From Sclerodactyla briareus (lineage: Eukaryota > Echinodermata > Holothuroidea > Dendrochirotida > Sclerodactylidae): a stretch of 64,000 nucleotides of DNA. The notes under the pieces were generated by a model. It worked only from the letters and a program-made list of their open reading frames with translations. It was not told the origin of the DNA and made no database searches. The stretch's first letter is position 1. The number at the start of each line of letters is the position of its first letter. Position numbers and translations under genes: made by a program. The stretch covers positions 1-64,000 of the forward strand of contig JAODTK010001344.1 in NCBI GenBank assembly GCA_026419785.1, written 5' to 3'. Of this stretch, positions 19,101 through 25,100 are shown piece by piece.

Positions 19101-22100
19101 TATATTCAATACACAAACAACCAACTAGTTCATGCGGACCATCGTCATGTCAAACGAACATCACATATTTTCACATATAACACATAAAAATTCCTAGAAA
19201 TACTGACCAATAAGTTTGACTCTTAATACCGAAAGTCCCTCAATTGCTTTTTTCTTGTTCATGCCCCCCCCCCCCCCACTCTTCTCTCCAAAAATACCCA
19301 AATTTGAATAAAGTTTTATCGCTCAGTCATCAACTCACTTTTTGACCCAAATCCACTTGGAATTGTTCAAAATCCCATTAGCAGCCCGGGCTCCTTTGCC
19401 TTTTAAAATCGAAATTTTCCTTCATTATCCATTGCCTTTTATTTTTCCAAGCAGCCAGGACATGCCATCCAGCCCCCCCCCCCCCCCGCCAGGCAGCAAA
19501 CACCCTCCCCCGCCATCCCCCACCCACCAACAAACTATCCCCCGTGCAGCAGTCAAGGATGTCCCAAAATATATTTTAGGAAACCTCCACATCTGTCTAT
19601 CTATTAATTTGTAATGTGATACTGTGACACCCATTCAGTGTCCACTGAACATCCCCACTCTTCGCCGCGCTCGCCCTACAGGAGCATATCAGAGGACACT
19701 AGACCGCCGCACACAAGTTAGACATGCACGGATAGACACCATGAGAGATATGTGTTTCCGCGTTTCTCGAGTCGGAGGAACTATTATATATATATGACGG
19801 AATTTAATTCAAAATTCATGAACAGCAAAACAAACTCAATCCAGAAAATTGCAACGGAACCAGACCTACTGAGTGCGGTGAAATTCTTACCAAGTTGGAA
19901 CTCGGAATTTACTATGACAAAATAGGCATACAATGAACCTATAAGAACCCAGCTGTACCTTCATAAATGATCAGAATCAAAGGTGGATCACATCTACCGA
20001 GTTTTGTGGAAATCCAACAAACTTCAAAAAATGCATGAAATTCTGCAGATCGACACATCAACTGACTCAGGGACCCCGACTCACTTTCAAATTATCGGGA
20101 ACATGTAGGACCACATCCACCAAGTTCGTGAAAATTGGACAAACTTGAAAAAATGAAAAAGTCGCATAATTAGGCAACTAGACCACTTAATAGCAGATTT
20201 AGGCTGAACATCTGATTAGTTCATTAACTGTCATCCAGGTCCTACATGCCAAAAATACATCACGGTAGCACATAGCTCTTGGTAATATGCTAACAAGCTT
20301 GAACAATAACTACAAAAATAAGCTAATTACCAACTTAATTAATACTTTTGCCTGCCCCCAAAAATCTAATCAGATCCTGTTCACCCCAACCCCGGTGCTA
20401 CCACAAAATTTCATATCATGCGAGACAAACAACCTTCAACTTGAACCGACAGATTTTTCCAAGATTTTGTTCAACAGCTTTCTTTCTCTGCCTTTGTGTT
20501 TTAACACCTCCTTCCAATACCAGCTACACCTTTCCATGTGAAATACCAGGCTGCTGAAGCTTTCCTGATCGATCATGATCAGGCACATTTTCGCTATCAG
20601 TGTAATATATGGGGGTAGCCCAATGCCTTATCCCTGTCGACAGCCATATACACCCTGAAAACCCAGGGTTGTAAGTAGCGCATTTATATCACCTGAGTAA
20701 CTCAACTACTAGGAATTCCTGTTGTTCCTAGGTAATTTGTACATGAAGGCTTGATGAGCACATGATTAGACAATAAGTAACTAGTATTTATTCTCAACAT
20801 AGGGAGTTTGTAGCATGAGTCTATTTTTTTAACTCACCAAAATAGAAAAGTATGTAGCAGGGAGTCGATCTGTACTCCCCAACATAAGTGTGTTAGCAAG
20901 GAGTCTATCTTACTCCCCAAACATAGTAAGGTGTTAGCAGGGGTCTATCTGTACAACACACATCGAAAGTATATGTAGCAGGGAGTATATCTGTACTCAC
21001 CAACATTGTAAGGTGTGTAGCAGGGAGTCTATCTGTACACACCAACATAGTAATTATGTAGAGGGAGTCTATTGTAGCACAACATTGTAAGGTGTGGAGC
21101 AGGGAGTCTATCTGTACTCCACCCCCAAAATAGCAAAAGTACTGTAGCAGGGAGCTATCTGTACTCCCCAACATGAAGGTTGTGTAGCAGGGAAGTATAT
21201 CTGTACTCACAACATAGTCAAGTAGTAGCAGGGAGTCTATCTGTACTCACCAACAGAGTAGGTGCATAGCAGGGAGTCTATCTGGACCACAACATAGTTA
21301 AGGTGTAAGAGACAGCCTATCTGCGCTCACCAGTATAGTGAGGTGTAAAGCAGGGAGTTAACAGTACTCACCAACATAGTAAGGTGTTGTAGCAGGGAGG
21401 CTATCCGTAATCCACCAACATAGTAAGGTGAGTAGCAGGGAGTCTATCTGATCACCAACATAGAGTGGTGGTAGCAGGGAGTCTATCTGTGATTATCCCA
21501 AAACATAGGTAAGTGGGTAGCAGGGAGTCATCTGTACTCACAACATAGTACGGTGTGTAGAAGGAGTCTATCTGTACTCACCAACATAGTAAGGTGTAAA
21601 GCAGGGAAAGAAAGTCTATCTGTACTCACCAACATAGTAAGGGGTATAAACAGGAAGGCCTATTGCACTCACCAGTATAGGGCGGTGTAAGCAGGGAGTC
21701 TACCTGATACTCACCACATAGTAAGGTGTGTAGCAGGTGGGAGTCTATCCGTAATCACCAACATAGTAAGGTGTGTAGCGGAGTCTATCTGTACTCACCA
21801 ACATAGTCAGGTGTGTGCAGGAGTCTATCTGTACTCCCCACATAGTAAGTGTTGTAGCAGGGAGTCTATCTGTACTCACTCAACATAGTAAGGTGTGTAG
21901 CAGGGAGTCGATCTGTACTCACCACATAGTAAAGGTGGTGTAGCAGGGAGTCTATCTGTCCTCACCAACATAGTAAGGTGTATACAGACAAGCCTAGTGT
22001 CACCACCAGTATAGTGAGGTGTAAAGCAGGGAGTCTACCTGTTACTCACCCACTTAGTAATGTGTGTAGCATGGGAGTCCTATCCGTAATCACCAACATA

Positions 22101-25100
22101 GTAAGGTGCATAGCAGGGAGTCTATCTATACTCCCCTTTAACTCACCAACCTAGTAAAGTATGTAGTTCAGGGAGTCTATCTGTAACTCACTCAACATAG
22201 TAATGGTTTGTTAGCAGGGATTCTATCTGTAGCCACCAACATCAGTACGTTGTAGCAGGGAGTCTATCTGTACTCACCAATAGTAAGTTGTGTAGCAGGG
22301 AGCCTATCTGTACTCACCAACATAGTAAAGTTAATGTCAGGGGCGGGAGTCTACTGTACTCCACAACATAGTAAGTATGTAGCAGGGACGTCATCTGTAC
22401 TCACCACATAGTAGGGTGTGTAAGCAGGAGTCTATCTGTAATACACCAACATGGGTAAGGTGTGTATCAGGGAGTCTTATGCTGACTCCACTCAACAAGA
22501 AGTGTGTAGCAGGGAGTCTATCTGTACTCACCAACATAGTTAAGGGTGTATAGCAGGGAGTGTTGAGACTTGACTGTCGTTGTCTCCTTGGCAAAAAGCC
22601 GAAGTCTTGTGAGCTTGAGGACTGAGTGGGAAGCACCATCCTTGTATAATAGCAAGTTCTCTGGTCTTAGGTCCCCTATGTTCTATGTTCATAGTGTGGA
22701 GGTGTAGAAGGGCCTGCCCTATACTGTGTACGACCTCTGCTGCCTCTGTATATCAATACAAATAGGTTACACACATCATTTTCAGTCCCATAATATCACA
22801 TTCCAAATCCCTAACAAATAGTAAGTAAATGACAGGGTGGGATCCCTATGGGGAAAAACTTTCCCTTTTTAGGTACTTCAAGTGGAATCCAGGGTGGGAG
22901 GTTGTACATCAGTACCTTTACATGGTTTAGATCCAATATTGTTTCATCTGGCCATATAGGCATTATTACATTATCTAATTATTATTTCTACAGAGGAATT
23001 TTCCTTCCAAAGTTCAGGGAGGTTATTTGTGTAATTTCGAGGTGAGAAATGTTACTCTGGCACCTAAAACCACAGGCACATACAAACACATATCACCACA
23101 AAACATATTGCATTTAGCCATGGGCATCACTTAATCATTTGTAATGGAGAGATGTTGTTGAATTGGCCAAGTTTGGAGAACTCTCAGCTCACACGCTTGT
23201 TATTAACCAGTAAGGTACTCACATGAAGAAAGTCAAAACAATTTTAGGATACTTGTCGTGGTTTTCCTGTGTGCATATTCATAATGTGGGGCCATGGTTT
23301 GTAGAGAGAAAAAGGAGCCCTGTAATGTTCACAACCTCTGCAGACTTTGTCTAGTGTATGTTATATGCTACTGACATGACTTCCCACGGGCCAGCCAACA
23401 TTTTCTAAATCAACTTCCTCCTGTGAACGAGCGGAAAGTTTTTTGGCAAAGTGAAACAGTGATCACCTCTGCAAATGACAAATAACTTGCCTGGGCAGAA
23501 CTCTAACCACAAATCACTATACCTGGCTGTGATGAAAAATTCTAGCATTATACATCACGTTCGCTAGAGAGAATCGTTCCACAGGGAAATTGCATACTGT
23601 TTCAGAAACGTAACCGAAGCCCAATTATAATGGAGTCTCATAAAATGTCATGTGTATAGAGCTTGATATACTCATAATAATCCCTATTAGGGGGAATGGA
23701 AATGTAGCGATAATTACACATTGGAATATTTGTAGCTCCCCATTTCGAAAAACCCAAACCAACTAGACATTGCCTGGCGGGTAATGCCAACGTGTAATCC
23801 CACTTTCGATCAATCAGAGGGTGAACAATTGTTTCGCCTTGTTTTTTTTTTTTACCAGAAGGGGATTTATGACCCAGGGAAGTGGAGATTGGTTCCAATG
23901 CACACACATGCTCCGTACTATGCAATATCGGCAGTAAAATCATTTCTGTCAGAAATTTGAAATGCCTGTTGGGTGGGTTCTATGGGGCGAAATTATGGTT
24001 CTGAAAATTGTTCTGTCCGAACTTGTAAACTGAAGGAATCATTTACCCGAGAAGTTTAAAATGGCTGCCGGGTTGGTCGTATGGGGCGAAATACAATTTA
24101 TTCCCAAAACAATTGCCATGCCTCAAAATGCGCAAATCAGCAAAATCAGCGGAAAGCTCAATTTCAACAAAAAAAATTCAAAATGGCCGCCACCAGAGTC
24201 GTCAAGCGATGCCCACTTCTTGACCCATTCAAGATTCTCATCAGATGATCATGGTGTGCATAGAGTTTCATATGATATGACAGGCACTAGGAGGTTATTG
24301 TACAAACACTATCATTCAGTTCCGTTGAAATCAAGATGCTGCCCGCATGGGTGAGATGTGTGCAAAGTTGTGTGTCAATCAGACATTGCGTTAGAGAGTT
24401 ATTGCATTAACATGAAAATCTTCTGGCGGACGCGAAGTGGGAATATAATTAAACCAAGGCACAAGGAATGCATTGAGCCAAATCTTTTAACCCCATTCAA
24501 AGGGTTCAAGTGTATAAAGGGGAACATGTCAGACAAGCCAAACCTTAACTTAATTTTGTCCACGAGGAACTGTAAACTAGAAACGGAATTGTCATTGAAT
24601 GACATACCAGATAATTGCATGTTTCCATATACTGTGATAAGCATATTTTCTGTATAACTCTATAGTGTACAAGTCATATTGACTAACTTCAAAGAATGCT
24701 CAGAAATTGGCAACATGAATAGCATTTTGCTGGTATTGGTTTGCGAAGTTTATTTCATGTCCTCCTTTCCAGCCACGAAGCTACCCATAGTGTAGTAATC
24801 TTTCGTATTGACTGACATGAAACTACATTAGAACAAAAAAATCTTTGGAAACGATAGTGTTAGGTCAAATTTCCTAATTTCATGGAATAGGTCCCTGTGG
24901 CGAAACAAATACATTTGTTACGGCTGGCGGGCTGACCAGCTTTTTCTTTTAATTTCAGACTGATCACCATTTCTTTCTCCCAAATAGTGAGAAGATTTGT
25001 GCTGAAATTTTGACTGAATTTCACCTTGTAGATGAGGTATCGAACGATGGCATTCATTTCCAATATCATGATGCTTATTTTTCTCAAAATATTTCAAAGG

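Follow-up and report, generated by a model that had tools for sequence, protein, structure and literature searches.

Why should an intron of a kinase gene open with some forty copies of the end of the preceding exon, each followed by a donor-like sequence? The question is raised by a minisatellite in positions 1 to 64,000 of contig JAODTK010001344.1 (this whole 64-kb stretch is called the window), where an MK2/MK3-type kinase gene is found on the minus strand and the array is placed straight after the real donor of its exon 4. The array is present and striking in sequence, yet its kind is already known. Minisatellites made from exon boundaries and bearing decoy splice sites were described as mirages in amphioxus, in Adh3 and in the globin genes BflGb6 and BflGb9 (PMC3087553). 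The array is probably a minisatellite of this mirage type, anchored at an exon and carried as a neutral passenger, with the first donor in use.

The repeat unit and its host gene

To define the unit, the minus-strand array was aligned with wrap-around to a reference 42-mer (ACTCCCTGCTACACACCTTACTATGTTG followed by GTGAGTACAGATAG). From 22561 down to 20795, it comprised 41 full 42-bp units and one partial unit of 28 nt, with 1562 matches, 128 mismatches, 77 insertions and 60 deletions. The alignment score was 2192, whereas 10 first-order Markov resamplings of the array stretch scored 19-27. Tandem Repeats Finder reported 20832-22561 with a period of 41, 40.8 copies and a score of 1310, so the original prediction of about 40 copies was confirmed. 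The alignment also bore out the anatomy that had been predicted, with a unit made of the last 28 nt of MK2/3 exon 4 joined to 14 nt from the start of the intron, which begins GTGAGTAC. The array thus has two parts:

22518..22561, minus strand: first repeat unit, covering the real exon 4 end and 14 nt of intron 4 beyond it, with the donor GT at 22531-22530
20795..22517, minus strand: 40 further full units and the 28-nt partial unit; copies of the exon end, each then followed by donor-like GTGAGTAC, the partial unit being without a donor

The consensus of the exon part reads TPCYTPYYV plus the G of a split Ala codon. Several copies matched human MK2 residues 222-230 in a tblastn search, and the unit therefore begins at T222, the p38-target threonine named in the prediction. 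Exon 4 upstream of its last 28 nt was outside the repeat. As in mirages, whose units hold exon and intron of one boundary and carry a splice signal in many but not all cases, 33 BLAST alignments in the array crossed the exon-intron junction, and the donor G was kept in 40 of 41 units and the donor T in 35. The description of the units and donors as near-identical was overstated, since the mean ungapped identity between units was 0.85-0.88 and an exact GGTGAGT occurred in 16 of 41. The first, real unit as deposited has two inserted bases and one substitution relative to the 42-mer, and the reading TPCYTPYYV comes from the consensus and the other units. When the opening 271 bases of the array were searched as DNA against the 319-Mb assembly, the best candidates being scored, this array was the only match.

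The unit length is a multiple of three and, as predicted, the consensus unit has an in-frame TAG, which 33 of 41 units carry at their end. Because this TAG lies before any later-donor join, only the first donor could give a full kinase, and a transcript spliced from any later one would run into a stop within the activation segment. When the first donor is joined to the nearer copy of exon 5 (copy A), the phase-1 junction GTT G/CT CCA reads V A P (V/APEVL, the slash marking the join). The repeat-unit consensus and exon 5 copy A together give an activation segment of the MK2/3 type; the first unit is frame-shifted as deposited.

The recognised exons of the gene extend from about 49.3 kb down to 12.1 kb of the window, and weaker tblastn matches were obtained at 51.6 kb (E 1.2) and 10.0 kb (E 0.057). 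They are as follows:

51507..51632, minus strand: probable upstream exon with a GLGINGK glycine loop, from sequence and a weak tblastn match (E 1.2)
49119..49261, minus strand: upstream exon for MK2 residues ~92-139, with one frame shift, from tblastn
39884..39945, minus strand: upstream exon ending FTER, approximate, from tblastn (E 0.008)
22532..22745, minus strand: exon 4, activation loop, from tblastn and sequence, with an approximate start and several frame shifts as deposited
18864..18939, minus strand: exon 5 copy A, joining in phase, then shifted with a stop as deposited
17152..17226, minus strand: exon 5 copy B, in the second copy of a ~1.3-kb segment, 89% identity
12126..12347, minus strand: exon 6 (part) with an intact frame, from phmmer against PDB and Pfam Pkinase

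For exon 4, tblastn aligned MK2 residues 186-230 to 22673-22533; the match as a whole, split between two frames, covers residues 162-230 and positions 22746-22533. The exon ends at 22532, where GTGAGTAC follows. The assignment to the MK2 class made by the prediction was supported by exon 6, whose nearest solved structures were MK2 (8.2e-36, 124.6 bits) and MK3 (9.5e-35, 121.2 bits), followed by CaMKII (2.9e-15, 59.4 bits). Intron 4 is at least ~3.6 kb long, and other introns of the gene are longer. At 22640-22680, the catalytic loop reads DLRPENLL, versus DVKPENLL in human MK2 (Lys to Arg), beside a frame shift; it may be a sequence error. Exon 5 is found in two tandem ~1.3-kb segments, 16624-17904 and 18330-19609 (89% identity), and a further match of ~0.43 kb had 81% identity. 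Both copies have an acceptor and a donor, and both meet a frame shift or a stop as deposited; they are possibly mutually exclusive exons or an unpurged haplotype.

Exon-end arrays elsewhere in the assembly

Whether other exons carry such arrays was examined at kinase genes. A Pkinase search of the assembly gave 39 places, including one in the window, and 11 of the 39 matches contained stops. Among the other 38, 35 were examined as centres, one lies inside L040 (the labels are those of the analysis), and two were left out. A tandem array of more than two copies, counted as touching when within 40 nt, adjoined the exon match at its 3' end in 3 of the 35 places and at its 5' end in 0 of 35; the first figure is a rough rate, because some genes account for more than one of the places. 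The three arrays are the following:

L022/L037 (L037:87-864, contig C144): ~4 copies, period 171-183 bp, with up to >110 nt of exon and GTAAGT at the first three junctions
L033/L038: period 76-77 bp, with up to 30 nt of exon and the donor mostly changed to GAGTATGT
L020: 63-bp period, copies with ~11 nt of exon, and a single diverged copy that has 67 nt

Alignments spanning the junction numbered four in L037, five in L038 and five in L020. L020 also has a second array, with a 28-bp period, ~105 nt 5' of the exon match, which was left out of the mirage count. Four other places were rejected as mirages: L019 had only two 16-bp copies at the exon end, L031 and L032 had diverged repeats some distance 3' of the kinase match, and the repeat of L043 was upstream. 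Other stretches totalling 70 kb (L009-L014 and L016), of which the contig of the window supplied 40 kb, showed no array with a period of at least 30 and at least 3 copies.

The assembly was also scanned for three GGTAAGT spaced 20-50 apart (GGTGAGT was not searched). The scan gave 37 matches at 13 places, versus 120 in the reversed control, and it therefore lends no support to a general excess of donor arrays. Six of the 13 places were examined, and their putative exons were assigned by an open frame and, for most of them, by an acceptor as well. Alignments that crossed an exon-like junction were found in L055, L057, L058 and L059; the array of L056 begins ~70 nt past the donor of its exon, L054 was ambiguous, and neither belongs to this set. 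As the sample was chosen for donors, it is uninformative on donors versus acceptors. Pfam gave no family in the pieces of L055, L056, L058 and L059, and a DEAD-box search of the assembly gave four places. The array at L058:361-801 (contig C2483), with ~27 nt of exon-like sequence and ~14 nt after the donor in a unit of ~42 bp, is built nearly as the kinase array is.

These arrays suggest that exon-boundary minisatellites can be common in a genome, beyond the few lancelet genes. A stronger claim, namely that exon 3' ends recur genome-wide as minisatellite seeds, that duplication prefers donors over acceptors and that a noticeable fraction of introns opens with decoy-donor arrays, in an animal that is possibly not a lancelet, is tentative, and we consider it unlikely as it stands.

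Other repeats were found in the window. On the plus strand, opposite to the kinase gene, a 34-bp minisatellite (13058-13869) bears donor-like GGGTGAGTGG, with pyrimidine-rich TTCTAG before it and no exon found beside it. A 54-bp minisatellite (8370-9272) lies downstream of the last recognised exon; its minus-strand units have GGCAG followed directly by GTGTGTAT, and no exon was found at its start. A 23-24-bp repeat (56848-57057) that lies outside the recognised kinase exons has six GGTGAGT/GGTAAGT on the plus strand. As no recognised kinase exon adjoins them, none of the three was taken as a mirage of this gene. Long G and C runs were frequent (up to 30 and 38 uninterrupted), for example at 5527-5592 and 14768-14810. 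Rfam and ARAGORN gave no match in the window.

Array history and the candidate explanations

To trace how the array grew, we counted the non-consensus bases shared by units at a given distance. Units 8 and 16 apart had 0.56 and 0.58 such bases in common per unit pair, and the values at other lags from 1 to 24 were 0.00-0.27. This sharing indicates that blocks of eight units were amplified, a turnover in blocks as in mirages. The higher-order structure is located as follows:

21316..22121, minus strand: higher-order repeat of 8 units (~336-341 bp) in three rounds, from shared non-consensus bases and the unit listing

Some of the substitutions must therefore be real, and many of the indels may be sequence errors, given the frame shifts in exons 4 and 5. 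We then compared the columns of the unit. Over the 41 units, the number of differences per column was 3.5 for the donor GT, 4.61 for the exon part and 3.5 for the rest of the intron part, and half of all adjacent column pairs were as low as, or lower than, the donor GT. The test is weak because it draws on one locus and a noisy array. It suggests that the decoy donors are neither clearly protected nor purged, as expected for a passenger.

We propose that slippage or unequal exchange across the exon 4-intron 4 junction would have started the array, and that the same processes, acting partly on blocks of eight units, would have extended it. The first donor would be the one that matters; transcripts from later donors would end within the activation segment and would probably be degraded. 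Such a passenger would lengthen the intron, and its copy number would be unstable, by analogy with other mirages. We infer first-donor use, decay of misspliced RNA, the duplication mechanism and neutrality from the sequence. Neutral expansion, one of three options in the original prediction, fits best with the lack of a selection signal on the decoy donors and with block-wise amplification; the other two, a copy-number switch and a U1 sink, are unsupported at the sequence level. Several points weigh against the passenger reading. The frame shifts in exons 4 and 5 are likely assembly errors, with a decayed gene as the alternative. Divergence from the consensus was not significantly related to position in the array (rho 0.24, p 0.13), leaving edge decay unsupported, and neutrality rests weakly on a single noisy array and a low-power test. 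Moreover, the intron-proximal of two duplicated donors reportedly tends to win in competition, and the choice of the first among ~40 donors is thus not self-evident.

Could the decoys instead regulate the gene? As a poison-donor rheostat, some transcripts would use later donors and gain multiples of 42 nt with a stop, ending in a truncated kinase or in decay, and array length would tune MK2/3 output. The divisibility of 42 by three, the in-frame TAG of the consensus and the retention of the donor by many units (G, T and exact GGTGAGT at the counts given above) agree with this, and a Caenorhabditis elegans paper ties intronic minisatellites to splicing choices (PMC4039745). The donor, however, is no better preserved than the remainder of the unit, the units of other arrays seem, within indel noise, not to be multiples of three (76-77 bp in L033/L038, ~41 bp in L057), and amphioxus mirages are reported without effect on mRNA (PMC3087553, PMC3902484). 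We regard a rheostat as improbable. The error-rich look of the deposited sequence (the shifted exons 4 and 5, the stops in 11 of 39 kinase matches and the many array indels) would suit an array, or at least a high copy number, produced by misassembly of noisy long reads, whose use for this assembly we infer. Random error would not yield substitutions shared in eight-unit steps, the array lies within a 636-kb contig, and other exons bear arrays of different sequence but like anatomy; an artefact was rated slightly below the rheostat.

The two remaining explanations were rated lower still. The copies could supply the material from which new exons or introns form, a model put forward for the amphioxus globins (PMC3087553), and exon 5 is itself present twice with both splice sites each; but inspection by eye, without acceptor scoring, showed no convincing acceptor in the unit, and the consensus stop blocks in-frame exonisation, which makes such an intermediate of intron birth very improbable. 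Least probable of all is a shield against premature polyadenylation, in which the donor array would bind the U1 small nuclear ribonucleoprotein and protect the intron start. Many U1-like sites do open an intron of at least ~3.6 kb, but there was no selection signal for donor retention and other introns of the gene are longer.

Mirages and other published systems

A passenger array with ~40 donors would let the choice of the correct donor be tested on a large scale in a natural gene, where each of the similar donors follows the same 28 nt of exon. Mirages would be known from a wider range of animals if the host lies outside the lancelets. Among sequences that could bear on the host group, the GFP family, mNeonGreen and a tunicate-type GH6 gave no match in searches that had no positive control, and there was likewise none for COX1, for an 18S pattern in which no mismatch was allowed, or for mir-2 among the 60 of 59014 candidates scored. 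Common exon-boundary minisatellites would also bear on intron growth and gain, and they would be a risk for annotation, as such arrays invite false exons and false isoforms.

The original prediction knew of no such repeat in a MAPKAPK gene, and a literature search agreed, with none joining MAPKAPK2 and minisatellite among the matches listed. The impression that a donor-bearing array is a new kind of repeat is not borne out, given the amphioxus mirages and the other such arrays in the same genome. All mirage cases found in print were cephalochordate, with an MK2/3 gene not among them; searches on amphioxus or Branchiostoma mirages and minisatellite instability, with subscription journals mostly outside their reach, found only PMC3087553 and PMC3902484, the latter comparing PGBD5 with mirages and citing troponin C. 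For splice-site minisatellites, no further clear case was recognised in the titles and abstract starts of the matches listed. Internal tandem repeats reported to modify human genes (PMC2812944) may be related in that they touch gene structure, but they concern segmental duplications. In intron gain by tandem genomic duplication (Drosophila, PMC2891723; potato, PMC4974935), the duplication likewise carries splice signals; there it is tied to a new intron, whereas the copies here appear to stay in an existing one.

The closest likeness is to the amphioxus mirages, as reported in PMC3087553 and PMC3902484. Their units span an exon-intron boundary, many of them carry splice signals, and the arrays stand at a real boundary, as here. 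Unit lengths are 10-72 bp in Adh3 and 150-160 bp in the globins, and 42 bp is within the published range. Mirages are reported to leave splicing undisturbed, differ in length between haplotypes, are somatically unstable and are homogenised, the edges of the BflGb6 cluster being excluded from homogenisation. The kinase array differs in having ~42 copies, versus six and three in the BflGb6 haplotypes, and in its eight-unit higher-order structure. Both exon boundaries are affected in amphioxus, whereas here and at the three other kinase places only the 3' end carries an array.

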